Shown one piece after another: positions 1 through 34,347 of a DNA stretch of 34,431 nucleotides (the stretch's first letter is position 1; each line of letters opens with the position of its first letter). Location of the stretch: assembly GCA_022729355.1 (NCBI GenBank), contig JALDAN010000008.1:1-34431 (forward strand), written 5' to 3'. The stretch comes from Candidatus Nanohalarchaeota archaeon. GTDB taxonomy: Archaea > Nanohalarchaeota > Nanosalinia > Nanosalinales > Nanosalinaceae. The notes beneath the pieces are model-generated. The model saw nothing but the letters and a program-made list of their open reading frames with translations, did not search any database and had not been told where the DNA came from. Both the position numbers and the translations under genes were made by a program.

Positions 1-1165
1 ATCTCTCCAAGATATTCACAAGACTGTTGAAATATCCTCCAGAAATATTCCGGACATCATTTGTTCTAGTGTACGCAGCTACTTCCTGAGCTGCCTGTGG
101 AACCTGATCAGTCTGCATACTTTCAACTATCTGCATCAAACGCACAACCCACAGAATCGAAACCGGATAATCACTGGAGTTACCATCCAGTATATCAAGA
201 ACTATACTCTTCACATTCGGATTCATCTGAGAATCCCTCAAGGCCTGTAAGAAAATACTCCAGTTATCACCCGAATAACCTGAACCAGGGCCTGAACCTC
301 CAGAACCCGAACCCTGATTCCCCAAATCTACATTAATCTCCGGCTCAAAATTAATCTGAGGATTGAAAATACCCTGAGGAAGGCCTCCACCGCCTCCTCT
401 TGGTCCCTGTCCTGTGGGGCCTCCTCCCGAACCACCAAGAGTGAAGGCCTCTGTATACTCATCTGTGAGATTGTTTTTATCTTTCGCTACTGCTGTTATC
501 AAATAATTACCAGGCGGGAGGCCTTCTGCCTCGAACACACATGTTTCATCGTCTTCACTGTTTCCTCCGACTGTTTCTCCGTTAGAGGATAGCTGAATTA
601 CAGTTTTTACAACAGATGCTGTACCAGGTGAGGACTCGGCCTCGATACGGACATGTCCTTGTTGCTCATCGATTATACTGTACTCTGCTCTGACTGTTGG
701 GCCTTGTTCATCTTCAGGAGTCGGCTCTGAGGCCCTAAATCCTGTTACATCCGATTTTTCTGCGACATCCGTCAGTATAGAGGCCTTAAGCACGTTTCTT
801 CCTTGTTGTACTGTTGAAGGCTGGGATATGAAGTAGTTTTCCTGTTCATTATGTTCTCTGACTCCGACTTCCTCTCCGTTTATCTCAGCTTTCAGATCCT
901 GTACATTTCCTGTACCTGGATCAAATGAGGCCTTCAGCCAGAACTCTTCTCCGACGTCCTGTGATCCCTTACTATGGACGTGTATAGTTGGAGGCCTATC
1001 CGGATCCGAAGTTCCACCAGTATCATCTCCGCCGCCGGTAGTTCCTGTTGGCCCGGTATCGCCACCGCTCCGTGATCCCATCTTATCATTCCAGAGGTAT
1101 GCGAGGATCAGTAAGGCCATTAGAAGTATGTAGAACCAGAGATCCTCAGGTAAGGCCTCCTGCAT
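1..1165 (-). CDS. Uncharacterised membrane-anchored protein, C-terminus truncated by window edge
   Basis: Open minus frame from ATG at 1165 (MQEALPEDLWFYILLMALLILAYLWNDKMGSRSGG...) to the window edge; checked by hand at both ends. N-terminal TM, Gly/Thr-rich linker, Ig-like region, 'IFNPQINFEPEINVDLGNQG' motif. Not listed in the ORF track because it has no stop in the window. Confidence 0.75.
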   Translation of the reverse strand, partial: MQEALPEDLWFYILLMALLILAYLWNDKMGSRSGGDTGPTGTTGGGDDTGGTSDPDRPPTIHVHSKGSQDVGEEFWLKASFDPGTGNVQDLKAEINGEEVGVREHNEQENYFISQPSTVQQGRNVLKASILTDVAEKSDVTGFRASEPTPEDEQGPTVRAEYSIIDEQQGHVRIEAESSPGTASVVKTVIQLSSNGETVGGNSEDDETCVFEAEGLPPGNYLITAVAKDKNNLTDEYTEAFTLGGSGGGPTGQGPRGGGGGLPQGIFNPQINFEPEINVDLGNQGSGSGGSGPGSGYSGDNWSIFLQALRDSQMNPNVKSIVLDILDGNSSDYPVSILWVVRLMQIVESMQTDQVPQAAQEVAAYTRTNDVRNISGGYFNSLVNILER

Positions 1166-1229
1166 GAACTAAAGTTTTGTTTTAAAGCTAATTATAAGTT
1201 AACGTTGGGAAAGGCCTCTGAGAGCAGAA

Positions 1230-1976
1230 TCAAGAGGCATTTTCAAGATTGAAACTGCTATCTCCTGATGTGATATTGATAGTTGGGGCAAAGTTGATCT
1301 GTGGATTGTAGATCCATGGAGTTTGCTCTCCCTCTACTTCTTCATCGTTTTCAAGTATATCCTCGTTCAGCTCTCCTTCAGTTACCTCTACATCAGAGAA
1401 CTTAGAGGCCTGTGTCCCGAAATTGTAGTTTGACCACGTGGAGAAGTTGTCTCCTACTACTTGTGTTCCAAAGTTATAGTTTGACCACGTGGAGAACCCT
1501 CTTCTGCCCGTAGTACCAGGATTTTCTGATGGATCTATCTGTCCGAAGCCGTTAGGCCATGAGAAATCTGTGTCAATATCTGAGGTTTGATCCATGAGGC
1601 TGTTTATAGCATCCATTGCGCTGTCTCTTTCGTTCTGTGTCTCTCTGAAAAGGCCTTCGTATATTGCTCCTGTGGCCTCTGCTTTTCTGCGCTGCTCATC
1701 TACTTCTGAAATTACGTCTCCTATTCCTTCTGCGAATCTGTCGTAGCTTCTGCCCATTCCTGCCTTGTGATCAATGAAATCTTCAAAACCGAAGTCCTCC
1801 GCATCTGCGATGTAGCGTGCTACATCTTCAAGACTTTCATCAGCTTCACCGGATACGATATCCTCGACGTACAGAGCTGCACCTAAGGCCTCTTCATCCA
1901 CTGCAGAGACATCATCCGCATAGGCCTCTGCACGGGCCTCAAGATCCTCGTAGCTCAACGCTTCTTCATTAGGCAT
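1230..1976 (-). CDS. Uncharacterised acidic protein, paralogous to the C-terminal half of the 2110..3243 product
   Basis: 248-aa ORF; AGGTGA Shine-Dalgarno about 8 nt before ATG; shares 'GAALYVEDIVSGE...DDVARYIA...AKGAI(Y/F)EGL.RE.QN(D/E)RD.A.DAI' with the neighbouring ORF. Confidence 0.8.
   Translation of the reverse strand: MPNEEALSYEDLEARAEAYADDVSAVDEEALGAALYVEDIVSGEADESLEDVARYIADAEDFGFEDFIDHKAGMGRSYDRFAEGIGDVISEVDEQRRKAEATGAIYEGLFRETQNERDSAMDAINSLMDQTSDIDTDFSWPNGFGQIDPSENPGTTGRRGFSTWSNYNFGTQVVGDNFSTWSNYNFGTQASKFSDVEVTEGELNEDILENDEEVEGEQTPWIYNPQINFAPTINITSGDSSFNLENAS
1411..1496. repeat. Two 35-bp direct repeat copies, 51-bp period (1411-1445 and 1462-1496)
   Basis: tgtgtcccgaaattgtagtttgaccacgtggagaa versus tgtgttccaaagttatagtttgaccacgtggagaa; encodes repeated FSTWSNYNFGTQ within the 248-aa ORF. 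Confidence 0.9.
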
Positions 1977-2109
1977 ATTTGTATCACCTGAAATGCCTCA
2001 AAAAGAGGCCTTTATTCACTTTATAGTGACAACAAGTTAAAAGTGTTTTGGTTGTATCGTTTGATTTTTAGCGTGAAGAATAAGGAAATGGAAAATGTTG
2101 AGGGTTTTT

Positions 2110-3243
2110 TTACAAGTCCTCAAGCTTGCCTTCTAGGTCGCTGAATGTGTCAGCTGCTTCCTGCTCCTGCTGTTCAGCGTCCTGAAGATCTGCTGCCTGG
2201 TCAAGCCAGTCAGAATCCCTTTGAAGCCCTGAGACTGCGTCCATGATTCCTCCTATTGCATCATGAGCTTGATCTCTGTCGTTCTGGACTTCTCTGGCAA
2301 GGCCTTCAAAGATTGCTCCTTTGGCCTCTACTTCCTGAGTCAGATTGTTTGCTGTTGAGACAACGTCGTTTACTCCGTCAACGAACTGGTCGTAATCTCT
2401 TCCTCCAAGATTTGCCTTGTATTCGACCATTGCTCCGAAGTTGAACTCATCCTGTCCGGCAATGTATCCTGCAACATCGTCCAGAGTCGTATCGTCTCTT
2501 TCTCCTGATACGACTTCTTCGACGTAGAGAGCTGTTCCAAGAGCTTCTATCTCATCCTGTTCCAGTTCTCCGTACTCATCTTCGTTTTCGTAATGTTCCA
2601 GAGATCCTGCGTGTCTGACTTCTTCTCCGCTGAACTCGAAATCTGCTGTGTCTTCTGTCATATTGTTTTCACCTCCTTGAGTGCTTGATCTTGATTTTGA
2701 TCTTTTACTCCTATAAATGAAATCATCTGATTCCTCGCCTGTGAAAAACTCTATAAACTCCTGTGAAAGATCCTCGATTCTATCATCAGAGGCTTGTTCT
2801 GCTTCACTGCGTGAACCGAAACCCTCTACCTCATAACGAAGTGAGTCGCCGATATCCAGTCTTGCTGTATTCTTATCAGTTACCACGGCGACTTCAGGCG
2901 TGTCAGAGGCCTCCGTAACGTATACATCGAATCTGTTGAAGTCGAACATGTTGTTCTCTTCTAGGGCCGCTACCTGCCAATCATCCCAGACAGAGTTTAT
3001 CTCTAGGCCTTCCTCTCCATCCCTGAGGAACCCTATGTCTTTGTATGACTCTATTTTCTCCTCCGGCATATCCCCTTTAGATACGATTTCCCCTTCAAGA
3101 GTATCCTGGAAGGCATCGTATCTTGAGGCCTCTCCATAGTCATCTATCTGTGAGAGAGAGGCTCCTTCGTAGCTATCCGGATGGCCGAAAGCATCTGTCA
3201 GGGCCTCCTGCTGAACAGGTGTTAAATCTTCAAATCGGTTCAT
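2110..3243 (-). CDS. Uncharacterised two-module acidic protein
   Basis: 377-aa ORF; C-terminal part paralogous to 1230..1976; strong internal SD plus ATG at 2661 (see findings). Confidence 0.7.
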   Translation of the reverse strand: MNRFEDLTPVQQEALTDAFGHPDSYEGASLSQIDDYGEASRYDAFQDTLEGEIVSKGDMPEEKIESYKDIGFLRDGEEGLEINSVWDDWQVAALEENNMFDFNRFDVYVTEASDTPEVAVVTDKNTARLDIGDSLRYEVEGFGSRSEAEQASDDRIEDLSQEFIEFFTGEESDDFIYRSKRSKSRSSTQGGENNMTEDTADFEFSGEEVRHAGSLEHYENEDEYGELEQDEIEALGTALYVEEVVSGERDDTTLDDVAGYIAGQDEFNFGAMVEYKANLGGRDYDQFVDGVNDVVSTANNLTQEVEAKGAIFEGLAREVQNDRDQAHDAIGGIMDAVSGLQRDSDWLDQAADLQDAEQQEQEAADTFSDLEGKLEDL

Positions 3244-3299
3244 GTAATCTACTTAGACACCAAAAACTTTTATTTATTACCTTGCAGTAAAAAAAGGAT

Positions 3300-3539
3300 T
3301 TAGTCGAACTTGTCCAGTCTCTCCAGCGTCTCAAGTATGCCCCATGCGTAGATGACTGCCTCCCATGCCCTGATGAAGTCCTGTTCTTCAAGGAAGTGAT
3401 AAGTATCATCCCTGTAGGCCTCAACGTTCTCCATCTGCTCCACAGAGCTATCTTTCTCCTCTATACGATCCTCTAGCTTCTGAAGCCATTTCTCAGTCTC
3501 CTCTTTCAGATTTCTCTGCGTCTCATCAAGCTCAGTCAT
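3300..3539 (-). CDS. DUF357 family protein
   Basis: 79 aa; 'AYRDDTYHFLEEQDFIRAWEAVIYAWGILETLERL' typical of archaeal DUF357; 8-bp overlap with the dphB end. Confidence 0.75.
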   Translation of the reverse strand: MTELDETQRNLKEETEKWLQKLEDRIEEKDSSVEQMENVEAYRDDTYHFLEEQDFIRAWEAVIYAWGILETLERLDKFD

Positions 3540-4230: not shown

Positions 4231-4289
4231 ACAGTAATTTTCTGGCACCCTTACCAATTTAACTCCTTGAACCGCCTCCAAATAATATT

Positions 4290-5324
4290 ATGGAACAGGA
4301 AAAGCTGGAAGAGAAAGCCCTGGAACTTTTCAGGCAACAGGACTTCAGGATTAAAGAGAAAGATGAAGGCCTCTACAAAGCCGTCAAAGATGATACAGAA
4401 CTGGAGATCCGGATCCTTTCCTCAGAGAAATACAGCATGGAAGAGGCCTCCGAACTGATTCAAGCAGGGGAGAAAGTTTTCGTAGATGAAGGTCTTGAAG
4501 AGTTGAAGGAAGGAGTTGGGAACGATGTTTCTGTTCTTGAGGAGGCCTCAGACAGAGAATACAGTATGCCTTCGTATGAGAGGATTGGAGATATTGTTGT
4601 GATCAGTGAGCTTGACGACGTATCTGAGGATGAAGCTGTTGAAGCTGTACTGGAGCATAATCCAGGCCTTGATTCAATACTGTTGAAGGAGGAGAATCTG
4701 AGCGGAGAGTTCCGTGTAGGAGGATACAGAAAGCTTTACGGAGATAAGACAGAGACAGTGCACAGAGAGCACGGCGTGGAGTTGAAAGTTGATCCTACAG
4801 AGATGTTTTTCTCGGAAAGAGAAGGCACGGAAAGGAAAAGGATATTCACAACAGTCGATAAGAATGATGAAGTGCTTGTAATGTTTGCAGGTGCAGCACC
4901 TTTCCCTGTAACGATAGCAAAACACAGCAAGGCCTCAGTGACCGGTGTAGAGAAGAACCCTGAAGCAGTAAAGTACGCTGAGGAAAACATCCGGAGGAAT
5001 AACGTAGCGGATAAAGTACAGATGATTCAGGGAGATGTAAGAGAGATCTGTCCGGAACTAGGAAAGTTTGATCACGTCCTGATGCCTTCACCGACAAATG
5101 CTCTGGAATTCCTAGGAGAGGCCCTGAACTGTGTCAAAAGCGGCGGAAAGCTCGTCGTATACAGTGTCTCCGATAAAGAGGATCTTTACAGGCCTGTAAT
5201 CGAAAAAGTTGGGGAAGAGGCCTCAAGGGAAGGCCTGAAGGTCGATGTATTGAAGAGGCGTGTCGTCGCTGATTTTTCTCCGTCGAAGAGGAAGGTTGCG
5301 GTCGAGTTCCGTGTAGAGGAATAA
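4290..5324 (+). CDS. trm5: tRNA (guanine37-N1)-methyltransferase Trm5-like
   Basis: 'NPGLDSILLKEENLSGEFRVGGYRKLYGDKTETVHREHGVELKVDPTEMFFSEREGTERKRI' plus Rossmann SAM-binding region 'MFAGAAPFPVTIAKH'. Confidence 0.9.
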   Translation: MEQEKLEEKALELFRQQDFRIKEKDEGLYKAVKDDTELEIRILSSEKYSMEEASELIQAGEKVFVDEGLEELKEGVGNDVSVLEEASDREYSMPSYERIGDIVVISELDDVSEDEAVEAVLEHNPGLDSILLKEENLSGEFRVGGYRKLYGDKTETVHREHGVELKVDPTEMFFSEREGTERKRIFTTVDKNDEVLVMFAGAAPFPVTIAKHSKASVTGVEKNPEAVKYAEENIRRNNVADKVQMIQGDVREICPELGKFDHVLMPSPTNALEFLGEALNCVKSGGKLVVYSVSDKEDLYRPVIEKVGEEASREGLKVDVLKRRVVADFSPSKRKVAVEFRVEE

Positions 5325-5357
5325 CTCGTTTAAGTAGGCAGTTACAATACTGTAGAC

Positions 5358-6896: not shown

Positions 6897-6930
6897 AATT
6901 ACAATAAAATAAGAGAGAAGTAAGAGGCCT

Positions 6931-8679: not shown

Positions 8680-8756
8680 CAATTTATTGTCACCTGTCAA
8701 TAACACAAACATTTATTTTTATATATCATTTGATAGTGACACCTAGAGCCATTACT

Positions 8757-11700
8757 TTATAGGCCTAGCCAGGCACGGATTCCTCCACGCCTTTGAGGAC
8801 TTTCAACAGCTCTGATATCAACGTTTCTGGTTTCAAGTACTTCACCGTCCCGTGATATCTGGATCGAGGCCTGTGAACTTTCTGTCGGACTGAAGTAGAA
8901 GTATACTGTTTCTCTCTGGCCTGGTGCAAGTACTTCTGTCTTTGAAGTCTGTGATACTTCCCTCGTGTTAACTCCTGAAATCTCTATGTCGTATCGTGAT
9001 ACTTCTGTTCCTCTGTTGTAGAGCGATACTCTGGAGAGGCCTGATTCTGTCTTGACTGTTGTGACTGAGTCAGGGAAGCTTTCAACTTCGTTGTCGTCTG
9101 CTATCACGTTTACTGTTTTGGATGCTGATGATCCTGCTCCTGAAGTCACTGCTCTTATCAGGTATCTGTGCTGTCCTGGTGAGGAGGCTCTCTGTGTGAA
9201 GCATACTTCTCCTGATGCATCTCTGGAGGCCTGTACTTTGCCATCTCTCTCAAGGACTACTCTTGGCTCCACCTCAGACTCGACTTCTGCACATACATCG
9301 AACTCCTGTCCCTGTACGACTGTGTGTGGTGCCTGTATCGGATTTACACTTGCCCTTGGATTAACATTTACGCTTTGACGGGCTGTTCTGCCACCGTCAG
9401 TTGAAACCTGTACGGACTTTCTGCCTGGCTCATTGAAGCTGATGAAGGCCTGATACTGTCCTCTCCTTGAAGATGTTACTGTCTCCAGTTCCCTGCCGTC
9501 AGCCTTGACAGTTACCTCTCTCGGCTCCCTTGTGCCTGCGACTTCTCCACGTACACGTACTGTCTCACCTGTCAAAACTGAAGGCCTTGCGTTGATTGTG
9601 ATTCCCGAAGGTGTTCTCTCAGGAGCCTCTACCTCTCTATCACAGTCCTCTACTTCTACCGTGAAGTCTCTCTGATTGGATCCATCGTTCTCAGCTTTGA
9701 CGAAGAACTCTTTCTCTCCGAGGCCTTCAACTCTTTCAACGTCAAGTGAGAACTCTTTCACGCCGGAGGCCTCTATATCTATGATCTTTGCAGGAGAACT
9801 TGCGTCCCCTCCTACATGGACAGCTACTGTCTGACCGGTGCTTCTCAGATTGGAGGCTGCCGCATCCACAGTAAATCCATCTCCCTCGCAGATCGTTTCA
9901 GGAGCATCTACAGACACAATATTAACAGGGAAGCCATCCTGTCGAAGCCTGAACTCCAGACTATCCTCATCTCCTTCGTCAAGAGTCACTCTCTGAGTCT
10001 CTGATTCATAGCCTTCTCTCGAGGCCTCCACATCGTAAGTATCTGCCTTAAGATTAAAGGATGTCTCTCCACTGCTGTCAGTATACTTTACCTTGTTCTC
10101 GCCGTTGGAGGCCTCCACTCTGGCATTTCTAATACTGTTTTCGTCCCTATCCATCACTTTTATATCGAGCTCTGCGTCTTCGGCGTCGTCATCCTTATCA
10201 TCGTCATCATCTTCTTTCTGGAAAGTAACTACTCTCGTAACAGACTGTGCTTCATCATCGCCAGCAGAGGCCTCAGCCACGAACTCCCGTGTCTCCTCCT
10301 TTTCAGAGGTGTAAGTAGCATCGAGTGCGCAGCTGCTGCCGGAACAATCAGTTGAATCTACTTCATTCCATGCAATCTTTGATACTTCACGTGAAAGAAT
10401 TCTGAGCTCTTCAAGCTCGTTTCCAGAGGCCTCTGCCTCTAGATCCAGCTCTTTATCTACTTCATACGTATCAGGAAGTGATTCAAGTGTGACTGAATCT
10501 ACTCTTGGATCTTCTTCTGGCTCCAGATACTGTACTGTCTCTACATCTGAGAATCCTTCTTCATCTCCGGCTTCTGCCTTTACTCTGTAGTCAACTGTTG
10601 TTTCTTCGTCCTCCATGACGGAAATCTGGATTATGCATGTGCTTCCGGCACAGGAGTCCTGTTCCACTGTTTCCCAGTCATCATCTTTTCTTTCCTGTAC
10701 CTCTAGGCTGTCAAGTTCTGTTCCTGAGGCCTCTCCATCTATCTGTAATTCCGTATCAACGGGATGTGTGTCAGGTAGTTCTTCTATCGTGACGTCTGTT
10801 ACTCCTGGTTCAGGTGCCTCTGTGAAGAGTACGGTCTGTGTGTCGCTGAACTTTGTGTCATCGCCTGCGTCAGCTTTCGCCCTGAAGTCGACTTCTCCTT
10901 CCGTATCTGCCTCGAAGTCAGTGTCGAATGAACAGCTTGAACCAGCACAGCTGGTCGAGTCAAGTGTATTCCAATCCCCGTTCTCACGATACTGTATTTC
11001 AAGTGAGTCAAGTTCTGTCCCGGATGCATCTGCAGAGACTGTAAGAGGATCGTCAACATCATGCTCAGCAGGGAGATTAGAGAGGAATACTGAATCAACT
11101 TCAGGCTCCTGTACTTCACGGAAATCAACAAACCTCGTAGCAGATAATCTTTCATCTCCCCCTGATCTCGCTCTTACAACGAACTCCCGGCCCTCGGCCT
11201 CAGAAGCAGTAAAGCTCCCTGAAATCTCACAGCTACTGCCAGAACAGGTTTTCTCCTCAACAGTCTGCCACCCAATCCTGTCCACTCTTCTTGTAAGTAT
11301 CTTTATCTCCTCCAGATTGCTGCCAGAGGCCTCTCCCTCTAGTTCAAGGCTTTCACCGACAGGATGATTCGATGGAAGAGTATCCAGACTCACTGAATCC
11401 ACTCTTCTCTCCTTCCGGAAGCTGACCGTCTGTGAAGAACTGAATCTTTCTCCATCATCTGTCTCTGCCTTGATACGGAACTCTACATCTTTTTCGCTGA
11501 AGGCCTCATAAGTTTCGTCTATACTGCATGTGCTCTGCCTGTTACAGTCCCTTGAGGATACCTGGCTCCATGAATCTCCTGGCTCTCGTTCCTGTAAAAC
11601 TATTCTTGTAAGTTCGTCGCCAGAGGCCTGCCCCGATATCTCCAGTTCTGTTTCAAGAGGATGATTGGACGGCAGATTATCAAGAGTTACGCTGTCAATC

Positions 11701-13286: not shown

Positions 13287-13290
13287 TGCA

Positions 13291-13728
13291 TCACCCACAT
13301 ACGTCCGGCAAATAATCATCAGTGTCATACTGGCCACTTGCATTAGTATCAGCCAATAAAAGAAGCTCTCCATCACTTTCAGCCCTGAATTCTATTCTGC
13401 CGGAATTAACGTATCCTGTTAGATCATCTTCCATTCCAAGATCATCTCGCACATAGGCCTCTATATCATCTTCATACGCAGATATATCACATCCCTCCGG
13501 TACTGCATCCTGCCATGTGCTGTATCCATTATCAGGATCTACATCCGGTTCTGCAGGTTCCTCTGTGTCTTCTCTGAAGTTTCCTGGCTCATTTCTTCCG
13601 CCCAGTATTTCTCTGAAATACGGCCATCCCCATGCTCCTGCTCCCGCAGTAGCTACAATTGGCGGTGTAAGAAGATAGAAAAAATGTCTTCTTGGTACTC
13701 CAGAGCTTTCATTTTCATCATCAGTCAT
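13291..13728 (-). CDS. Uncharacterised membrane-anchored protein, possible Tat-like N-terminus
   Basis: ATG 13728 (MTDDENESSGVPRRHFFYLLTPPIVATAGAGAWGW...); RR followed by a hydrophobic segment; AGGGT upstream. Confidence 0.6.
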   Translation of the reverse strand: MTDDENESSGVPRRHFFYLLTPPIVATAGAGAWGWPYFREILGGRNEPGNFREDTEEPAEPDVDPDNGYSTWQDAVPEGCDISAYEDDIEAYVRDDLGMEDDLTGYVNSGRIEFRAESDGELLLLADTNASGQYDTDDYLPDVCG

Positions 13729-23712: not shown

Positions 23713-23733
23713 AGTTAGGAGAATATGCCTGAA

Positions 23734-23746: not shown

Positions 23747-23800
23747 TTCAAGAGGCCTACTAACTGGGGAGAAAGGTAATAAGACAGTAAACCGTAAACT

Positions 23801-24181: not shown

Positions 24182-24195
24182 GTTGACAGGTAGAG

Positions 24196-24283
24196 CGCCG
24201 AGGCTGGGATTTGAACCCAGGAGGGAGCGTAATGTCCCACCACCTTTCCAGGGTGGCACCTTTAGCCACTCAGTCACCTCGGC
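24196..24283 (-). tRNA. tRNA-Ser(GGA)
   Basis: Minus strand GCCGAGG...CCACC-CTGGAAA-GGTGG...GGTTCAAATCC...CCTCGGC+G; anticodon GGA; long variable arm; acceptor pairs GCCGAGG/CCTCGGC. Confidence 0.95.
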
Positions 24284-24350
24284 AAGCAGTTTACGTGTAA
24301 ATAGAATTCGTCGATAGACTTTTTTAATTGACCTCAGATAATATGGAGGC

Positions 24351-25307
24351 CTACTGTTTCCATCTCTTCGGATAAGTCTCTGGATCCATGTGAACTGATT
24401 CAAGCTCGGCTGCGGTACCATCAGAGTCAAACATTTTTTCCGAAGTCATCGAGGCCTCTGCAATCGCAACAAGCTCTCCCTTGAGAGTAGTTATTGCTAT
24501 TCTTTCTCCTTCCTCTATGCCATCCTGTAGTTTCGATATCCCTGTTGCCCCGAGGTTTGCGCCGTTGGCGACAGCGTTAACAGCTGAATCCTTGATAGCC
24601 ACTTTCTTCAAGTGATTGACTCCTTTCTCAATCGGATGAAGTACTTCACGTATCTTCTCTTCATCACCTTCGTTGTAGAAGTGATAGGCATCTACTACTT
24701 CCTGTATAGTAGAGGCCTGTGATTCTTCCAGAGAGGCCTGTCTTGTTCTACGTAGTTCTGTCATTGAGGCCTCGGTTTCAAGTTTTTCTCCAAGTTGCTG
24801 TATGAGGACTCTGACGTAGAATCCTGATTCGCATTTGACTCTTCCAAGTATCTTCGTTCCTTTTTTATCGAGGAATTCGATTTCATATACTTCTCTTTCC
24901 CGTTCCTCTCTTTTGACAGCGCTTTTCTCCGGAGGAACCTGCTTGTTCACTCCTTTGAACGTTTCCAGTGCCACCTCGACTGCTTCTTTACTTTTTTCTT
25001 TTTTCAGTTCTGCCTCGAATACGTATTCTTTGTCGGCTTTTGCCATGGCTTTGTTTATCCGTGTTCCGGAGTTGAGGCCTACAGGCAGTATTCCTGTGGC
25101 GTTGGGGTCCAGTGTGCCGAAGTGTCCTGTCTTCTTCAGGTCTAGTTCTTTCTTTATCCATGCGGATACCTGATTGCTTGTTGGTCCGTAAGGCTTGTCA
25201 ATTATCACTATACCTTTCTGAAGGAGTTCTTCCACAGGTCTTTTCTCCGGTATGCAGCCGAATTCAGGATCTGTTTCTGATTCTTGCCTTACGTACCACT
25301 CTGTCAT
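24351..25307 (-). CDS. tRNA/rRNA pseudouridine synthase Cbf5/TruB with C-terminal PUA domain
   Basis: 'IIDKPYGPTSNQVSAWIKKELDLKKTGHFGTLDPNATGILPVGL', 'PPEKSAVKR', 'GFYVRVLIQQLGE'. Confidence 0.94.
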   Translation of the reverse strand: MTEWYVRQESETDPEFGCIPEKRPVEELLQKGIVIIDKPYGPTSNQVSAWIKKELDLKKTGHFGTLDPNATGILPVGLNSGTRINKAMAKADKEYVFEAELKKEKSKEAVEVALETFKGVNKQVPPEKSAVKREEREREVYEIEFLDKKGTKILGRVKCESGFYVRVLIQQLGEKLETEASMTELRRTRQASLEESQASTIQEVVDAYHFYNEGDEEKIREVLHPIEKGVNHLKKVAIKDSAVNAVANGANLGATGISKLQDGIEEGERIAITTLKGELVAIAEASMTSEKMFDSDGTAAELESVHMDPETYPKRWKQ

Positions 25308-25370
25308 TGTATCCAGTGTTTTACCGGTGAGTCTTTTTAATTCAGTAGAAAAAAGAGTCGGAGGAAGTTG

Positions 25371-26081: not shown

Positions 26082-26110
26082 CTTTGTGTTAATCAACTCT
26101 TTGTTCTTCG

Positions 26111-26120
26111 ACTATATAAT
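26111..26120 (-). promoter_or_regulatory. Putative TATA box upstream of the DUF106 gene
   Basis: Minus strand ATTATATAGT about 30 nt before ATG 26081. Confidence 0.45.
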
Positions 26121-26156
26121 CTTCCTTCTTTCTTGGAGGCCTTCTGATTTCACTTA

Positions 26157-27548
26157 TTATTGCATGAAATCCTTGAGTGCTGGGTGTAGTTCTTCCATGT
26201 GCTTCTGCGCCAGCTGTTCGTAGAGTCTGTACAGGATCATGACTGTTAGAAGGATTCCTGTTCCTCCTCCTGCTGCCTGTGTCATTTCTGCAAGTGCTGC
26301 TACTAGGCCTACAAGGAATCCGGATAGTATTGTTAGTGCTGGAATGTATCTGTTGAGTACTTTTTTGATAACTCTCTTGTCCTTTCTGAATCCTGGTACT
26401 TTCATGCCTGTTCTCTGGATCTGTTCTGCTACTGAGTCAGGATCCTGTCCTGATGTACGCATCCAGAAAATTGAGAACAGTGTTGATCCAAGTGCGTAGA
26501 ATAATACGTAGAACAGTATGTGGAATATATCTCCTGTTACAATGGTTCCCGTGCTTATAAATGCTGATACTGCTTCAGCAGGTGGCTGTAGAAGCGCTAC
26601 AAGGCCTGAAGTTGCCTCTCCTCCCTGGAAGCATCCAAGAATTGAGCATCCGCTTTCCCCTGCTAGAGATGATCCTAGGATCTGGAAGTTTGTAATCATG
26701 GCTGCGATCAGGATAACAGGCATAACAGATGTGTAAAGGAATTTGAGAGGCCATTTCTGTCCGAAGCCTCTTACATTTCCGAATGTGAGCGGAATCTCTA
26801 CTTTCATTGCCTGCATGTATACAACTACGGCAAATACGGCCATTGTGGCTATCATAGGCATTAGTGCTGTCAGTTCGAAAGTGTTGACAAATTGCAGGAA
26901 TGCTCCTACAGGTGCTGCGTCTCCGCCTCCTACTTGCCAGAATATTTCTCCTGTTTCTGTTAGAGGTGATAGAATTCCGATGTATATGGACTTGGATACT
27001 CCTGCAGCGATGAAGAGGCCTGTTCCGCTTCCGAATCCCCATTTCTGAACGAGGTCGTCCATCATGATTATGAGCCAGCCTCCTATGATTATCTGTCCTG
27101 ATAAGAATGCTACCATGCCCCAGTCTCCTACTACAGGCCCGAAGTTTCCGGATAGTACCCATCCTAGGCCTGTAACTACGGCGAGTGCGTATGCAAGTAC
27201 TTTCTGTGCTGCTTGGAACTTCTGTTTCCCTGCCTGTGTATTAGTATCCCATTTGAGTAGTTCTGATCCTACAAGCATCTGAAGGAGAATTGATGATGTG
27301 ACGATAGGTCCAATTCCCAAAGTTATGATCGATCCTATTTCTGCTCCAAGAATTGTTTGGAAGGTAGCAAGCCTTTGTAGTGCTTGCTCTACAGCAGCAT
27401 CTTCAGCTCCGTAAACAGGTACCTCGGAAAGTAAGAAATATACAAGGAGGACTATACCGGTCCATATAAGCATCTGTTTCAGTGATTGCTCTTTCTCCGG
27501 CTCCTTGATACTTGGAAGATAGCTGGCTATTGTTACGACCGAGACCAT
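26157..27548 (-). CDS. secY: Preprotein translocase subunit SecY
   Basis: 463 aa polytopic; 'TSSILLQMLVGSELLKWD', 'PLKFLYTSVMPVILIAAM'; downstream of the rpl15 gene. Confidence 0.96.
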   Translation of the reverse strand: MVSVVTIASYLPSIKEPEKEQSLKQMLIWTGIVLLVYFLLSEVPVYGAEDAAVEQALQRLATFQTILGAEIGSIITLGIGPIVTSSILLQMLVGSELLKWDTNTQAGKQKFQAAQKVLAYALAVVTGLGWVLSGNFGPVVGDWGMVAFLSGQIIIGGWLIIMMDDLVQKWGFGSGTGLFIAAGVSKSIYIGILSPLTETGEIFWQVGGGDAAPVGAFLQFVNTFELTALMPMIATMAVFAVVVYMQAMKVEIPLTFGNVRGFGQKWPLKFLYTSVMPVILIAAMITNFQILGSSLAGESGCSILGCFQGGEATSGLVALLQPPAEAVSAFISTGTIVTGDIFHILFYVLFYALGSTLFSIFWMRTSGQDPDSVAEQIQRTGMKVPGFRKDKRVIKKVLNRYIPALTILSGFLVGLVAALAEMTQAAGGGTGILLTVMILYRLYEQLAQKHMEELHPALKDFMQ

Positions 27549-27560
27549 GTTTAAAGTCCT

Positions 27561-27992
27561 CTACTTTTCCTCTAGTACGACCATTTCAGCGTCAGATTCT
27601 TCAATCTTGTTTTCAGCTGAAGATGAAAATTTCTCAGCTCTTATCTCTACAGACCTTGTGATCCTTCCGGATCCCAAAACTTTGTCAAAACCGGCTTTGT
27701 CTGCGTGGAAAACGTAACCGTCTTCAGTCTCCTCTGCAACACCCTCTGCAACAAAAGAGTCAAGCTTTTCATCTATATCTCTCAAATTAATGCCTGTCTG
27801 AGGATCTTTTCTGGAGTTGAAACCTTCTTCTCCAAGCTTATTGACTCCATCTTTCCTCATGTTCTTGGACTGGGCTTTTTTACCGCTTCCAGCATTTCCA
27901 CGGCCTCCACGATTACCTGCTCCCCTGTTCTTCTTGGAGCTGCCGTATCCATGACTACCTGACCGATTCTTGCTCTTTCTTCTCTTAACCAT
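27561..27992 (-). CDS. rpl15: Ribosomal protein L15 (uL15)
   Basis: MVKRRKSKNRSGSHGYGSSKKNRGAGNRGGRGNAGSGKK. Confidence 0.94.
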   Translation of the reverse strand: MVKRRKSKNRSGSHGYGSSKKNRGAGNRGGRGNAGSGKKAQSKNMRKDGVNKLGEEGFNSRKDPQTGINLRDIDEKLDSFVAEGVAEETEDGYVFHADKAGFDKVLGSGRITRSVEIRAEKFSSSAENKIEESDAEMVVLEEK

Positions 27993-28013
27993 TATCTAGT
28001 AACCTCGTTAAAC

Positions 28014-28370
28014 TCAAAGCATTTTATGCAGAAGCTCATCCATATCCTGTCTTCTGCCCAAAGCTCCTCCAGCATTAACATGCGCCTTCGTATCCTTAAA
28101 TCCTCCTTTTGGAGGATGAAGACCTACAGTCAATCCTGGAGAGGCCTCTCCATGCTTTTCCTCGATTTTGCTTACTGTTTCCTCACTTATAACTCCGAAA
28201 GTAATGTAGTCACTAACTTTATTCAGCATCCCTACTACTGCATCGTTTTCAGAATCCACAAGTACGCAACTGTTTCTTGAATTGAGGCCTAGACTCTCCA
28301 TTGTGGACTCAACGTCTCCTGATACGTCTACAGGCCCTCTGACTCTTACTGCTGCGATCATATCTGTCAT
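28014..28370 (-). CDS. rpl30: Ribosomal protein L30 (uL30)
   Basis: IAAVRVRGPVDVSGDVESTMESLGLNSRNSCVLVD...HPPKGGFK; position in spc operon. Confidence 0.93.
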   Translation of the reverse strand: MTDMIAAVRVRGPVDVSGDVESTMESLGLNSRNSCVLVDSENDAVVGMLNKVSDYITFGVISEETVSKIEEKHGEASPGLTVGLHPPKGGFKDTKAHVNAGGALGRRQDMDELLHKML

Positions 28371-29041
28371 TCGTTATCACTTTCTTCTGTCTGGTATTCA
28401 TTCAGTTTTTTGAAGGCCTCGAATGTTGCCTTCACCATGTTCTCACGTGTGCGTGTGCTTCCTCTTGAAGTTGCCCAGATGTCTTCGATTCCTGCTAGTT
28501 CGCACATCTTCTGGATTGCTTCTCCTGCTGCAAGGCCTGTTCCTTTCGGTGCAGGTTTAAGTTCTACTTCAACTGATCCTGATTTCCCTGTTACTTTGAA
28601 CGGGATTGAGGTTTCTGTGTCTCCTCTGTCTTCCCAGGATCCGTTTCCTCTCTGTACTTCAATAAGGTTTAGTTTTGCGTTTCTTGTAGCGTCGTCTATT
28701 GCTGCACGGGTGTCGTCGCTTTCTCCCATGCCGATTCCGATTACCTTGTTTCTGTCGCCGAGGATTGCCATCGCTTTGGAGTTGTATCGTGCTCCTGACT
28801 TGTGCATACGGACTGTTCTCTTTGACACTGTTCTTGACTTTCCTCCTCCTTTTCCAGGAGTTCCTCCGATAAGTACGACTTCTTCGTCAAGATCTACAAG
28901 TTGATCAACTAGCTCTGGTTCCATGATCTTCCTGTCAGATCGCAGGGCCTCAACTATATCTGTTATCTGGCCTTTTGCAACCTGCTTTCCTAACTTGGTC
29001 TTCGGAGTCCAGATTTCTTCCTCCATTTCCTGTTCACTCAT
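28367..29041 (-). CDS. rps5: Ribosomal protein S5 (uS5)
   Basis: 'WTPKTKLGKQVAKGQITDIVEAL'; 'VIGIGMGESDDTRAAIDDATRNAKLNLIEV'. Confidence 0.95.
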   Translation of the reverse strand: MSEQEMEEEIWTPKTKLGKQVAKGQITDIVEALRSDRKIMEPELVDQLVDLDEEVVLIGGTPGKGGGKSRTVSKRTVRMHKSGARYNSKAMAILGDRNKVIGIGMGESDDTRAAIDDATRNAKLNLIEVQRGNGSWEDRGDTETSIPFKVTGKSGSVEVELKPAPKGTGLAAGEAIQKMCELAGIEDIWATSRGSTRTRENMVKATFEAFKKLNEYQTEESDNE

Positions 29042-29094
29042 TTGAAATCACCATAGATTTCTGTAAGACCAGAAAATCTTAGATTTTCGATCAT
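29038..29094 (-). CDS. Candidate 18-codon ORF coupled to both rpl18 and rps5 (MIENLRFSGLTEIYGDFK)
   Basis: GGTGA upstream; ATGA overlaps with the L18 stop and the S5 start. Confidence 0.4.
   Translation of the reverse strand: MIENLRFSGLTEIYGDFK
29072..29088. repeat. Perfect inverted repeat GAAAATC-TTA-GATTTTC in the L18-S5 spacer
   Basis: 7-bp stem, 3-nt loop, read directly. Confidence 0.9.
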
Positions 29095-29600
29095 TTGAAA
29101 TCACCTTCGATATTTTCCTTTACCTGTTCAAGATTTGAAGGCACATCTTTATCTGACATTTCCTTGATGTGTTCTCCTTTCATCCTTGATTCTTCAGGAA
29201 GTGCGTCTTCTCCTGCAGGAACCTGTACTCCTGCGTCTCTGAGGCCTTGGACTGCTGCGAAGATTCTTCCTTTGCGTGCGTCCTTTCTGAGGCCTATGTC
29301 AAGTACTGCTTCGTCTGTGTCTGTTCTTTTTCCTGCAAGGAATCCTGTGAGGTATGCTGCTGGAAGGTTGCCGGTGTGGTGTTCCCATCCGTACTCTTCC
29401 AGTTCTTTACTTATTGTTTGAGCACTGTTTTCATCTCCCTCCGGATTGTATCTGGAGAGATGTACTCTTGTATGATTGTTTGATGTTCTTACTACTACTC
29501 TAGGCTTATCTGATTTGATAAGCTGAAGTCTTTGCTCGTAGTCGGTCTTCTGCTCCTTTCTTCTCTTGAAAGGCTTTTGATAGTTTGCTGTGTCTCCCAT
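29091..29600 (-). CDS. rpl18: Ribosomal protein L18 (uL18)
   Basis: 'YEQRLQLIKSDKPRVVVRTSNNHTRVHL', 'AAYLTGFLAGKR'. Confidence 0.95.
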   Translation of the reverse strand: MGDTANYQKPFKRRKEQKTDYEQRLQLIKSDKPRVVVRTSNNHTRVHLSRYNPEGDENSAQTISKELEEYGWEHHTGNLPAAYLTGFLAGKRTDTDEAVLDIGLRKDARKGRIFAAVQGLRDAGVQVPAGEDALPEESRMKGEHIKEMSDKDVPSNLEQVKENIEGDFK

Positions 29601-29601
29601 A

Positions 29602-30042
29602 TTACTTTACCTCGTCTTCTACATAGTTGTGTAAGTGTTTACGATTTCTGAAGAAACCGCCTTTAGCCTTCTTGTAGAGCTCTCTGTATTGCTCATTAGT
29701 GATTTCTTCTTCCTCTTTCATTTCTTTAAGATCTGATCTTAGAGCTCTGATTGTCTCCATCCACTTATCCTTATCGGATTTGCGGGCTGAACGTGAACCT
29801 TTTCTGCTTCCCTGGCCTTTCCTTCTTCCTTTCTCCTTCTGTTTCTTATTCTTACGTGCACGGCCTTTCGAAGTTCCCTTAACCTTCCTCTTTTGAATAG
29901 CTCCTCCTTCAATAAGATTGCGGATATCTTTGCGTGTAAGAGCTTCATCAATCTGCTGCAGTTCATCCGGATTCATCCATACACGATCTTCGCCAACATC
30001 CATTATATCTGCAGCCATTCTTCTCTGACTCTTCAAATCCAT
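29602..30042 (-). CDS. rpl19e: Ribosomal protein L19e
   Basis: 'MDLKSQRRMAADIMDVGEDRVWMNPDELQQIDEALTRKDIRNLI'. Confidence 0.95.
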   Translation of the reverse strand: MDLKSQRRMAADIMDVGEDRVWMNPDELQQIDEALTRKDIRNLIEGGAIQKRKVKGTSKGRARKNKKQKEKGRRKGQGSRKGSRSARKSDKDKWMETIRALRSDLKEMKEEEEITNEQYRELYKKAKGGFFRNRKHLHNYVEDEVK

Positions 30043-30368
30043 TAAAGATCACCTCTATTAAGTACTTTAACATCCATTTCGTCAGCTTTTTCAACCATCT
30101 CAGCTTTTTTACGGCCTCCTACATTCGAGGAGATCCTTGCGGCCTGATCCTCTTCAAGTTCCTCAACTTCTGAAACGTTGTGTACAAGTACTTCTTCAAG
30201 GCCTGATGGATGTAGCCCTCTGATTTCCGAAGGCTTTCTATATCCTGCCTTTGGTCTAGGTGCAGCACCTTTCTTTTCCAGTCTTGATCTGGAGTGACGG
30301 CCTTTAGGCCTTCTCCATGACTCCGGTGCGCTCTTTATCTTGTGAGTATCCTGTCTTTTGAAGCTCAT
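30042..30368 (-). CDS. rpl32e: Ribosomal protein L32e
   Basis: 'SWRRPKGRHSRSRLEKKGAAPRPKAGYRKPSEIRGLHPSGL'. Confidence 0.95.
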   Translation of the reverse strand: MSFKRQDTHKIKSAPESWRRPKGRHSRSRLEKKGAAPRPKAGYRKPSEIRGLHPSGLEEVLVHNVSEVEELEEDQAARISSNVGGRKKAEMVEKADEMDVKVLNRGDL

Positions 30369-30371
30369 ATT

Positions 30372-30905
30372 TTATTGATCACCTTCTACAATGTAGATCC
30401 CGTCCTGAAACGTTCTTGGATCTCTATTTCCTTTTTTAGACAACTGTTCTATTCTAGCTGCTGTCTGTGATACCTTGTCTTTATCAGGCCCCGACACTGT
30501 GATTTCTTCGCCGTCTACCTGTACGTCAACTCCATCCATTATCTCTGCTTCTCGTGGCTTCCTTTCTCCCATGAAGTTTTCGACAACCAGCTTATCTCCC
30601 TGTGTCTTGATTGTCATCGGGAAGTGTGCGTATACTCCTTTCAGTCGGTAGACGTGTTCTTCTTCAAGGCCTTCAATCATGTTGTCGTAGTGTCTGCTGA
30701 AAGTCTTGACGATGCTTTCGATATTGGCCTTGTCTCTGTCTGTTGAGAATACTATTTCGTCGTCCTGTACGTCTATATCAATCTGTGCGTGTTCCAGTTT
30801 CTTCTCTACTTCCTGAGAGCCGTCAGATACCGTGAGGATTCCCCCTTCGTATTTTGCCTGGAAGTCTTCCGGAATATCTTTTGTAATCTGCATCTTTTTC
30901 TTCAC
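30372..30905 (-). CDS. rpl6: Ribosomal protein L6 (uL6)
   Basis: 'YRLKGVYAHFPMTIKTQGDKLVVENFMGERKPREA'. Confidence 0.95.
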   Translation of the reverse strand: MKKKMQITKDIPEDFQAKYEGGILTVSDGSQEVEKKLEHAQIDIDVQDDEIVFSTDRDKANIESIVKTFSRHYDNMIEGLEEEHVYRLKGVYAHFPMTIKTQGDKLVVENFMGERKPREAEIMDGVDVQVDGEEITVSGPDKDKVSQTAARIEQLSKKGNRDPRTFQDGIYIVEGDQ

Positions 30906-30911
30906 ACCTTT

Positions 30912-31301
30912 TTAGTAGACGTATCCGAGGAGTTTGCCTCCGATCTGTTCTTCTCGGGCTTCTTCATGTGTCATGACGCCCTGAGGGGTTGTAACGATAA
31001 GTTTGCCGAATCCTCGTGCCGGAAGGTATCTTTGAGCCCATTTCTGATATTCGTTATTGCTCATCGAGAACCTTGGCTTGATCGGCTGGCATTCATTGAT
31101 TTTCTCTGTTACTTCTACCTTGAACTTGCCTCCTTTACCGTCTTCAACAAGTTCGAATACACCGATGTAACCTTCCTGCTGAAGCTGGACAAGCACGTTC
31201 TTCACAAGATTGCTTGTCGGGGAAATCACTGCGTACTCATTATCTGATCTTGCAGCATTGTTAATCGATGAAAGTGCATCGCTCAGTGTGTCCTGTGTCA
31301 T
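30912..31301 (-). CDS. rps8: Ribosomal protein S8 (uS8)
   Basis: 'DTLSDALSSINNAARSDNEYAVISPTSNLVKNVL'...'GFGKLIVTTPQGVMTHEEA'. Confidence 0.95.
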   Translation of the reverse strand: MTQDTLSDALSSINNAARSDNEYAVISPTSNLVKNVLVQLQQEGYIGVFELVEDGKGGKFKVEVTEKINECQPIKPRFSMSNNEYQKWAQRYLPARGFGKLIVTTPQGVMTHEEAREEQIGGKLLGYVY

Positions 31302-31357
31302 TATTCGAAAACACCCTGTGTTTTCTGTGAATTCATAAAATCTTCGATTTTAGTCAT
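31301..31357 (-). CDS. Candidate 18-codon ORF coupled to rps8 (MTKIEDFMNSQKTQGVFE)
   Basis: SD GGAGGAG about 6 nt before ATG; TAA overlaps the S8 start as TAATG. Confidence 0.45.
   Translation of the reverse strand: MTKIEDFMNSQKTQGVFE
31336..31352. repeat. Perfect inverted repeat TAAAATC-TTC-GATTTTA in the S14-S8 spacer
   Basis: 7-bp stem, 3-nt loop, read directly. Confidence 0.9.
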
Positions 31358-31373
31358 GTTTTTCTCCTCCGTT

Positions 31374-31598
31374 CTAACTCAGCTGCTCGAAGCCAAGTTC
31401 TTCTGCGATTTCACGGAAGCACTGTCGGCAGTAGTCAAGCCCGTACTTCGAGATGACTCCTCTACCTGTTCTTCCGCATCTTCTGCATTCTTTCTTGGAT
31501 TTTCCGTAATCTCTCTCCTTCGGAGTATTATGCTTCTCAAACTTCTTCCTCTTACCTTCCTTGTGCTTAATCTGATCAAGTACTTCTTCATATGACAT
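31374..31598 (-). CDS. rps14: Ribosomal protein S14 (uS14), zinc-binding type with N-terminal extension
   Basis: '[28 protein letters not shown]'; about 28-residue charged N-terminal extension. Confidence 0.93.
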
Positions 31599-31601
31599 AA
31601 T

Positions 31602-32126
31602 TTAATTCACCTCTACGCCGAGCTCTTCCTCGACGAACTCACGGGCCTCATCATCACTTATCAAATGATCCTTACCAATATCACGAGGCTTGTGATCTCT
31701 CTTCTTAACCCTGTAACCAGGCCTCTCCAACTTCACAGCAACCTCGAAACCACGCATACCGATATCAGAGTCGTAGTCAACACCCGGCACATCGATGTAC
31801 TCTGAGATACCGAATGCGAAGTTGCCGTTGCCGTCAAAGGCCTCTCCACTTATTTCATTGTCAGCTGCCGGAAGTACTTTTTCAAGGAATTCACGGGCCT
31901 CTTCTCCTCTCAAAGTAGTCATTACTCCGAGATTCAGGCCTGCTCTTTTTCCGAAGCTCTTGGCATCTTCTCCTGACTCTGTTCTCACAGGCTGGTTTCC
32001 TGTCAGTTTCTCAATCAGCTTATAGGATTTCTCTACTTCATCTCCTACTTGGCCTGTTCCAATATTGATTACTACTTTTGCGATCTCTATTTCCTTCATC
32101 ACGTTTTCAGCCATTCTATTATTCAC
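31602..32126 (-). CDS. rpl5: Ribosomal protein L5 (uL5)
   Basis: 'IAKVVINIGTGQVGDEVEKSYKLIEKLTGNQPVRTES'. Confidence 0.95.
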   Translation of the reverse strand: MNNRMAENVMKEIEIAKVVINIGTGQVGDEVEKSYKLIEKLTGNQPVRTESGEDAKSFGKRAGLNLGVMTTLRGEEAREFLEKVLPAADNEISGEAFDGNGNFAFGISEYIDVPGVDYDSDIGMRGFEVAVKLERPGYRVKKRDHKPRDIGKDHLISDDEAREFVEEELGVEVN

Positions 32127-32782
32127 CTGTAGTTGACGCCTGTAACGGCGACAAGGTTTTCTTGCTGGGTTTCGTATTCCACTCCTTCCTCATTCTCAAT
32201 CAGTGCAGTGTTCGGATTCATGCCTCTGTCGTTAAGTTCCTTGACTTCAGCTGTCTCTCCTGCGTGACTACCTTTTACTACTAGGGCCTCTGCACCCTCC
32301 TCAAACTCTACTTCCTCAACTCCATCTCCGAAGACGAGAGTGTTTCCTGTTGAAAAACTGTCTCCTGTCCTGTAGTTCTCTCCGTTGTGAAGCCTGTAAA
32401 CAAATTCATCTCCTTCAACAGACTTGTCAACCACCTTGGCAAACACTGTATCGTTTTCTACCCGGACGAAATCCAGATTATCTCTGTTCTTGAGAACCCG
32501 GAAGGCCTCTCCAGTTTCCGGGAGCTCAATCAGGTCAAGGATTCCCAGGCCTTCCTGGATATCTCCGATTCTATCTCCATTTCTCAGTAGATCGCCGTTC
32601 GTAACAATCTCTGTTGCTTCTTTACTGCTGTCAGCGTATCCAACTACATCCCTTAGAAACAGGACTGCAGGAACAGCTGTATCAGCGTTTCTTGAACCTT
32701 TAATAGTTGAGACGTAAGTCGTCTCTTTCCTCTCAACCGGGTAATGCTTTGGTGCTGAAAGCCTCTTCTGGTGATTGCTCAT
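32123..32782 (-). CDS. rps4e: Ribosomal protein S4e
   Basis: 'LPVVLFLRDVVGYADSSKEATEIV'-like region, here 'VPAVLFLRDVVGYADSSKEATEIVTNGDLLRNGD'; operon position. Confidence 0.94.
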   Translation of the reverse strand: MSNHQKRLSAPKHYPVERKETTYVSTIKGSRNADTAVPAVLFLRDVVGYADSSKEATEIVTNGDLLRNGDRIGDIQEGLGILDLIELPETGEAFRVLKNRDNLDFVRVENDTVFAKVVDKSVEGDEFVYRLHNGENYRTGDSFSTGNTLVFGDGVEEVEFEEGAEALVVKGSHAGETAEVKELNDRGMNPNTALIENEEGVEYETQQENLVAVTGVNYR

Positions 32783-32789
32783 TAATTTT

Positions 32790-33590
32790 TCAATCCTCCT
32801 TTTTACCTTCTAAATACTCTATCATGGTTTTACGATTCTTTCCAGACTTCTCCGCCTCAATCAAGGCCTCGTAGTCAGGACTATCAATCTCCTCAATAGC
32901 ATCCTTTGCCTCACCGATAGTGCCGGAAACAATACCGTCATAATCAGTTGAGGCCTCATCCTCTTCCTCTTCAGACTCCTTTTCTGCCTCTGAATCATCT
33001 TCCTGATCTGAGGCTTCTTGATCAAGTTCTTCTTCGATTTCTTCCTCAATCTTCTTGAGCTCTTCTTCGGAGACTCCTTCATCTTCCTTCTCTTCGTCTT
33101 CTTCTGTGTCGTCTCCGTCCTGTAACTGCTCAATCATTTCTGCTTCTTCATCCTGTTCAAGAGCTTCCTCGACTTCATCCTCTGATACCTTGATGGATTC
33201 AAAGTCGTCGATTGCGAACTCTGATACTCTTTTCTCGTCTGAAAGATTCAGTCCCTGAATCTGAAGATTTGAAGGCCTCAGAGGGACTTGGTTCTTTGAT
33301 CCATCTACGGCTGTTTCCGTGATGCCGTTTACATATACTTTCTGATTATCTCTATCGATACGGTTTACGATGCCTTCCCTGCCTTTATGATCTCCACGCA
33401 TTACTTTGATACGATCTCCGTTTCTCAGGCCCAAGTTGCGTGTATCAAGTTCTTCTCTAATTACTTCGGAAAGATTTGCTGAAATAAAATTATCTTTTAC
33501 GTGGTTCGGAGCGTTCTGCCTGTACTTCCTCTGCTTCTGAGGATCAGTACTTGATTTCCATGAACTACTCCAGTTACTTGTCTGTCTCAT
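32790..33590 (-). CDS. rpl24: Ribosomal protein L24 (uL24) with long acidic C-terminal extension
   Basis: KOW region 'NGDRIKVMRGDHKGREGIVNRIDRDNQKVYVNGI'; about 140-aa extra C-terminus. Confidence 0.93.
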   Translation of the reverse strand: MRQTSNWSSSWKSSTDPQKQRKYRQNAPNHVKDNFISANLSEVIREELDTRNLGLRNGDRIKVMRGDHKGREGIVNRIDRDNQKVYVNGITETAVDGSKNQVPLRPSNLQIQGLNLSDEKRVSEFAIDDFESIKVSEDEVEEALEQDEEAEMIEQLQDGDDTEEDEEKEDEGVSEEELKKIEEEIEEELDQEASDQEDDSEAEKESEEEEDEASTDYDGIVSGTIGEAKDAIEEIDSPDYEALIEAEKSGKNRKTMIEYLEGKKED

Positions 33591-33603
33591 TGATTTTATA
33601 CCT

Positions 33604-34002
33604 CTATACTACCTTTGAAGCAATTTTTCCTACAGGACTGAAGCGTTGGACAACTTCTTTTGCAATAGGACCTTTTGTTACAGAACCCTTTGGAAGGCCT
33701 CCTTCTTCAACAAGTACTGCAGCGTTGTCTTCAAATTTCACGCGCATCCCGTTAGGCCTCTGGTATTCTTTGCGTTGTCTTACGATGACTGCTTCGAATA
33801 CCTGTCCTTTGACTTCTTCGTCTCCTTTAAGGATTTTGACTATGACTACGTCGCCGACTCCTGCAGAGTTTCTTCTGCTTCTTCGGCTTGCCTGACTTTT
33901 CACTCCGATTATCTTCAGTCTCTTTGCTCCGGAGTTATCAGCACATTCAAGTTCTGCGCCGATGTCCAGCGTCCTTGTAATATTTGCTCCGATAGGCTTC
34001 AT
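33604..34002 (-). CDS. rpl14: Ribosomal protein L14 (uL14)
   Basis: 'LECADNSGAKRLKIIGVK', 'GVGDVVIVKILKG'. Confidence 0.95.
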   Translation of the reverse strand: MKPIGANITRTLDIGAELECADNSGAKRLKIIGVKSQASRRSRRNSAGVGDVVIVKILKGDEEVKGQVFEAVIVRQRKEYQRPNGMRVKFEDNAAVLVEEGGLPKGSVTKGPIAKEVVQRFSPVGKIASKVV

Positions 34003-34017
34003 TACAGTTTTACACCT

Positions 34018-34347
34018 TTACTCCTCTACTTCTTCCTCTTCGTCCAAAACGTTCAGGACGACATGGCTCTTGGTTTTGGAGATAGGCCTTGTTTCTCCGA
34101 CCTTTACACGGTCACCTTCCTCTAGCTCCACGCCTTCAGGAACGTGTACGGAGATCTTAGTATTACGTCTTTCATACCTCTCGAACTTCGGGACTTTCTC
34201 AGCGTACTCCCAGCGGACAGTAGCTGACTTATCCATCTTATTAGATATAACTCTACCAACAAATGTTCCTCCTTTTACCGGGTACTCAGATTCAATTTCA
34301 GATTCTGCTGTCAAACTTGATTCACCTCTAATTTTTTCGACTCTCAA
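34018..34347 (-). CDS. rps17: Ribosomal protein S17 (uS17)
   Basis: 'GTFVGRVISNKMDKSATVRWEYAEKVPKFERYERRNTKISVHVPEGVELEEGDRVKVGETRPISKTKSHVVL'. Confidence 0.94.
   Translation of the reverse strand: MRVEKIRGESSLTAESEIESEYPVKGGTFVGRVISNKMDKSATVRWEYAEKVPKFERYERRNTKISVHVPEGVELEEGDRVKVGETRPISKTKSHVVLNVLDEEEEVEE

Follow-up and report, generated by a model that had tools for sequence, protein, structure and literature searches.

The 34,431-bp stretch of nanohaloarchaeal DNA analyzed here (the window, contig JALDAN010000008.1) contains the palindromic hexamer AGGCCT exactly 124 times, first at position 241 and last at 34084-34089. The whole genome to which it belongs contains 3,601 copies in 886,350 bp, that is, one per 246 bp, compared with 459 copies of the reversed control word. 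We propose, at a probability of roughly 0.4, that AGGCCT, preferably as RAGGCCTY (R, purine; Y, pyrimidine), is a mark like the cyanobacterial highly iterated palindrome HIP1, read as unmodified duplex by a sequence-specific, dispensable protein whose footprint at each site is a few tens of base pairs.

Abundance and strength of the AGGCCT signal

Dinucleotide shuffling of the window yielded 7.5 ± 2.9 copies, with a maximum of 16. Among the 64 palindromic hexamers AGGCCT was clearly the most overrepresented (observed/expected ratio [O/E] 16.7; runner-up TCCGGA, 4.3), and its one-base variants were far less common (AGGCCA, 5; AGGCCC, 9; GGGCCT, 19). In the 30 main reading frames, which hold 104 copies, resampling by codon usage gave 11.2 ± 3.1 and permuting synonymous codons within genes 14.7 ± 3.4, and neither null ever exceeded 27. 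Chance, base composition, dinucleotide content and codon usage are ruled out as the cause by these shuffles and codon-aware nulls, as is a general excess of GGCC, both for the window and for the motif-rich relative SG9. The original prediction, a hand tally of about 124 copies in 34 kb with individually far rarer one-base variants and no general GGCC excess, was thus accurate. It had also specified what would speak against it: neither codon-aware shuffles reaching about 120 copies nor a background frequency on the rest of the chromosome was observed. TCCGGA constitutes a second, weaker palindrome excess in the window (24 copies versus 5.6 expected), part of which is explained by trinucleotide content.

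The pressure behind this abundance can be read from the fraction of synonymous opportunities, that is, places where the protein code permits AGGCCT, which are actually filled. This fraction was 69% in the window (103 of 150) and ∼74% overall in SG9, irrespective of whether the reading frame encoded Arg-Pro (76%) or corresponded to NAG.GCC.TNN (68%) or NNA.GGC.CTN (78%); codon shuffles gave 8-12%. It was 47-51% in M3_22, another motif-rich relative, and 2-4% in Candidatus (Ca.) Nanohalobium. The density in SG9 was 4.8 per kb in non-coding and 3.9 per kb in coding DNA. The pressure acts at the DNA level, is blind to frame and is equally active outside genes; from the occupancy odds, its scaled strength (2Ns) is about 3 per site. 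The dipeptides Arg-Pro and Gly-Leu were also raised in SG9 (O/E 1.48 and 1.44, compared with 0.79 and 0.95 in Nanohalobium), and the reversed dipeptides Pro-Arg and Leu-Gly were not, so the pressure extends to positions at which it changes the amino acid. Across the genome, a DNA-level signal thereby skews the composition of proteins, a point to bear in mind in phylogenetic and codon-usage studies of such genomes.

Occupancy increased further with a purine 5′ and a pyrimidine 3′ of the motif, hence RAGGCCTY; at position -1 in frame 0 of SG9 it was 0.84 for A, 0.81 for G, 0.65 for C and 0.42 for T. The full palindrome was the favored unit in SG9, whereas in M3_22 the half-matching AGGCC[ACG] was also elevated 2.5- to 4-fold, indicating looser specificity; stringency therefore varies by species. 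A replication-oriented strand skew of AGGCC[ACG] was looked for, and only a weak skew matching the coding-strand bias was found.

Neighboring sites are not independent of each other. The window has only 3 gaps below 25 bp, where ∼11 were expected, and pairs in which both sites are occupied had an O/E of 0.42-0.55 below 24 bp; the ratio had recovered to 1.0 at a distance of 100-150 bp in SG9 and of ∼40-50 bp in M3_22. Occupancy in SG9 climbed from 0.44 to 0.84 with the distance between sites. Such a pattern, whether it reflects diminishing returns or steric exclusion across tens of base pairs, is easier to reconcile with a duplex-binding reader than with a site-independent mutation bias or a repair signal acting on the kilobase scale.

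Within the window, copies occur inside conserved, essential genes, as had been claimed: Pfam confirmed Trm5, Cbf5, SecY, L30, S5, L18, L6, L5 and L14. The features are as follows:

241..34089, no strand: field of 124 AGGCCT, on average 275 bp apart and at most 1,402 bp
4290..5324, plus strand: Trm5/Tyw2-type tRNA methyltransferase gene (Pfam), 8 AGGCCT
8757..13376, minus strand: gene for a surface-type protein of 1,539 amino acids with a carboxypeptidase-regulatory-like domain, 24 AGGCCT
24195-24283, minus strand: tRNA-Ser (GGA) gene
24351..25307, minus strand: Cbf5/TruB pseudouridine synthase gene (Pfam), 5 AGGCCT
24713..24772, no strand: rare tight group of AGGCCT (positions 24713, 24734 and 24767)
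26157..34002, minus strand: secY and spc-type ribosomal cluster (SecY, L15 region, L30, S5, L18, L6, S8 region, L5, L14), with AGGCCT inside the conserved essential genes

Spread, maintenance and loss among relatives

In a SecY tree, the window adjoins Ca. Nanosalina J07AB43 and the metagenome-assembled genome ERR2683643 (support 100/99), and it is therefore nanohaloarchaeal. Seven genomes from four genera are rich in the motif: the window genome (G000), SG9 (G003, CP012986; 4,489 copies), Ca. Nanohalovita haloferacivicina BNXNv (G010; 2,466 copies), M3_22 (G016, CP046106; 1,803 copies), U2g27 (G017), U2g29 (G018) and U2g21 (G012), the last being a weakened carrier with 0.9 AGGCCT per kb. The labels of the three U2g genomes, of J07AB43 (G001) and of ERR2683643 (G002) were inferred, from motif density and GC content among others; the set further includes Ca. 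Nanohalococcus occultus SVXNc (G006), NHA25 (G009) and G011, which we take to be Ca. Nanohalobium constans. Background counts were obtained for the family's 12 remaining members, among them the two others of the window's genus, and for each of nine genomes drawn from sister families within the order. No replacement palindrome of similar strength was found in samples of 5-20 kb from the motif-poor relatives. The very close relatives L170 and L172 (SecY ∼96% identical by tree distance) differ in GC content (39.2 versus 43.3%) and in AGGCCT density (0.9 versus 3.7 per kb).

Sites are conserved between carriers. U2g27 and U2g29, with 37 and 27 sites, respectively, on an aligned stretch of 71% identity, have 16 in common, and control hexamers were conserved at 16%. 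U2g21, despite being 80% identical to U2g27, has kept only 2 of these 16 sites; the other 14 were lost by mixed substitutions, and the loss is recent. Carriers thus keep their sites in place, and once the cause disappears, the sites decay. This decay, together with the uneven distribution of the pressure among close relatives, shows that the pressure requires a factor which lineages can lose.

DNA that looks recently acquired is devoid of the mark: in the island at 388172-400623 of M3_22, AGGCCT occupies 1 of the 38 places open to it (p = 2e-10). Judged by eye, its genes encode a DsbA-like (thioredoxin-like) protein, a P-type metal ATPase, a DoxX-like and a regulator-like protein. A second motif-free island lies at 134769-140455.

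Candidate explanations

A DNA-level pressure fills about three quarters of the places where the protein code permits AGGCCT, prefers dyad-symmetric flanks and weakens where two sites are only ∼40-100 bp or less apart. According to the reading we prefer, the unmethylated duplex would be bound by a dimeric duplex-binding protein or complex spanning a few tens of base pairs; this reader would be dispensable, its loss leading to decay of the sites. The mark may serve recombination, recognition of self DNA or chromosome organization, and AddAB, a helicase-nuclease that every carrier encodes, is the best physical lead. Three observations weigh against this proposal. The short-range exclusion could equally be caused by the tract length of conversion or repair; helical (10.5 bp) phasing of the sites was looked for and not found; and no reader protein emerged from the ∼80 profiled of 369 candidates common to SG9 and M3_22, among which only AddAB tracked the motif.

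Every cyanobacterial HIP examined has a matching methyltransferase (PMC4390886), which argues for a methylated HIP as conceived by Elhai (2015): the site would be methylated by its cognate enzyme, and mismatch repair directed by the methyl group would ratchet up the number of sites. Findings in the carriers speak against it. PF00145 (5-methylcytosine [m5C] methyltransferase) had no match in any motif-rich genome, and PF01555 exceeded the cut-off in BNXNv only, whose type III Mod has been published (PMC10266531). For the complete genome of M3_22, PF00145, PF01555 and a motif search revealed no recognizable DNA methyltransferase, although an enzyme of another family could hide unrecognized; the survey by these two families and a motif regular expression is complete for this genome only. 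Just two proteins of M3_22 with an [NDS]PP[YFWH]-type motif look like methyltransferases, and both are of the housekeeping type (presumably release-factor and rRNA-type enzymes) and also present in SG9 and Nanohalobium. Moreover, the only published nanohaloarchaeal methylome found, that of SVXNc, marks GDGCHC instead (140 sites in the genome). A methylated HIP is consequently the least probable of the explanations considered. Drive by m5C deamination or very-short-patch repair was rejected as well: one-base neighbors in SG9 and M3_22 show no C-to-T-specific depletion, and the decay in U2g21 is not dominated by C-to-T changes. In the window, a small sample, AGACCT is low (8 of 26). Hence, of what had been predicted, a HIP1-like, genome-wide palindromic signal beyond codon usage and GGCC excess stands, and it is missing from foreign DNA; its methylated version is not supported by what the methyltransferase searches of the carriers returned. 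The other suggestion, binding of a protein to the word for repair, DNA recognition or chromosome organization, is narrowed by these results.

AGGCCT might instead be a palindromic and hence bidirectional site at which an archaeal AddAB stops degrading DNA, at breaks and on incoming self DNA, so that marked DNA survives and recombines, in the manner of the Chi sites of RecBCD/AddAB. Like these, it is short, overrepresented and found in genomes that encode an AddAB-like pair. G016_0430 and G016_0431 of M3_22 are an adjacent AddA-like and AddB-like pair, the former combining a UvrD helicase with a RecB-type PD-(D/E)XK nuclease (addA_Gpos, 7.5e-52), the latter a degenerate helicase with an intact PD-(D/E)XK. 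The pairs are located at:

G000:C30:8846-14096, window genome
L116:12179-17489, minus strand, M3_22
L075:1465-6752, SG9

All 7 motif-rich genomes have AddA with a nuclease domain, but among the 12 motif-poor members of the family only 2 do (Fisher p = 7e-4, uncorrected for phylogeny), and neither of those in the window's genus has it. Seven of the 12 lack AddA and AddB, one retains just an AddB fragment at the edge of a contig, in two AddA has no nuclease, in one an interval of 7.6 kb splits AddB, and G004 has both proteins. The two with truncated AddA, the motif-poor Nanohalobium and Nanohalococcus, keep AddB; their AddA stops before the C-terminal nuclease domain, at 759 (G011) and 769 (G006) amino acids compared with 888-919 in motif-rich genomes. 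Among 25 DNA-metabolism genes profiled, AddAB alone tracked the motif; a panel of 23 others, regulators among them, did not, nor did any of ∼57 further proteins except a small one of 86 amino acids, present in four carriers. The latter was discarded as a reader candidate, since it is missing from the U2g clade, as was a metallo-β-lactamase-fold protein that is present in non-carriers too. However, AddB also occurs in motif-free sister families (G019, G022, G025 and G027, three of which have an AddA that includes the nuclease) and in G004, likewise motif-poor, so AddAB can at most be necessary. U2g21, in which contig breaks fall at addB, still has AddA despite the loss of most sites, an exclusion confined to 40-100 bp is not predicted by a Chi function, and AddB has no PDB relative by sequence. 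Known Chi sites are also non-palindromic and much less dense. We consider a Chi-like role rather unlikely. An AlphaFold model of AddB was discarded (mean pLDDT 39). Outside the order, a complete archaeal genome of 2.1 Mb (G056) encodes a close relative of AddB (E 3e-226), pointing to horizontal transfer.

A DNA uptake or self-recognition word would likewise mark self DNA by a dense short sequence, as do the uptake sequences of Neisseria (DUS) and Haemophilus (USS): fragments bearing it would be preferentially taken up or recombined, molecular drive would spread it, and one site per short fragment would be enough. Near saturation, equal density inside and outside genes, short-range redundancy, patchy gain and loss, and absence from acquired islands are all consistent with this. 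Yet none of 28 genomes from the order contained the ComEC channel of natural transformation (PF03772), and known uptake sequences are longer, non-palindromic and much less dense than AGGCCT, which renders this explanation rather improbable. Similarly improbable is a bias of mutation or repair that makes AGGCCT without the site having any function. Such a bias would account for equal pressure on coding and non-coding DNA and for the effect on amino acid-changing positions; but all six positions of the motif are involved rather than a single type of substitution, it would not be expected to produce short-range exclusion or symmetric flanks, and conservation of sites between carriers is far above background.

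Relation to known genome-wide palindromes

The purpose of HIP1-type palindromes has been open since 1995 and is tangled with methylation in cyanobacteria. AGGCCT shares with HIP1 (GCGATCGC) and Elhai's alternate HIPs that it is a short GC-rich palindrome, found chromosome-wide, in and between genes, far above Markov and codon-aware expectation, spread by substitutions, patchy among relatives and kept above background. It differs from HIP1 proper in motif and in host, a nanohaloarchaeon rather than a cyanobacterium. At one site per ∼250 bp it is over four times denser than HIP1 in Synechocystis 6803 (one per 1131 bp; PMC6604393), with about three quarters of synonymous opportunities filled and short-range exclusion of sites. 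Its carriers, in which no matching DNA methyltransferase was found, are an exception to the rule that cyanobacterial HIPs come with a matching methyltransferase (PMC4390886). AGGCCT works like HIP1; membership among the HIPs in the cyanobacterial sense is not established because no matching DNA methyltransferase was found in the carriers.

In the literature searched, no report of AGGCCT or of any HIP in nanohaloarchaea was found, and we know of no earlier chromosome-wide mark of this kind in archaea. Tentatively, and at somewhat less than even odds, AGGCCT may be the first chromosome-wide recognition mark of archaea: methylation-independent, near-saturating, read as duplex, reshaping the proteome, gained and lost between sister species, and possibly linked to AddAB, a link that, if it holds, would make AGGCCT the first archaeal Chi-like site known to us. 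It provides an independent, denser, archaeal and seemingly methylation-free case of a HIP-like palindrome, together with a natural on/off comparison within one genus and in one close pair (82% identity, longest aligned stretch). Direct tests are possible because one carrier, Ca. Nanohalovita BNXNv, is in stable laboratory co-culture.

Restriction-modification sites, for example GDGCHC of SVXNc, are palindromic hexamers of the same archaeal family, but they are typically avoided (140 copies of GDGCHC in SVXNc) and come with a cognate methyltransferase, whereas AGGCCT is enriched and its carriers lack a matching one. In 20 kb of SVXNc, GAGCTC occurred once, compared with 8.9 expected, which is consistent with avoidance of the strain's own methylated GDGCHC.

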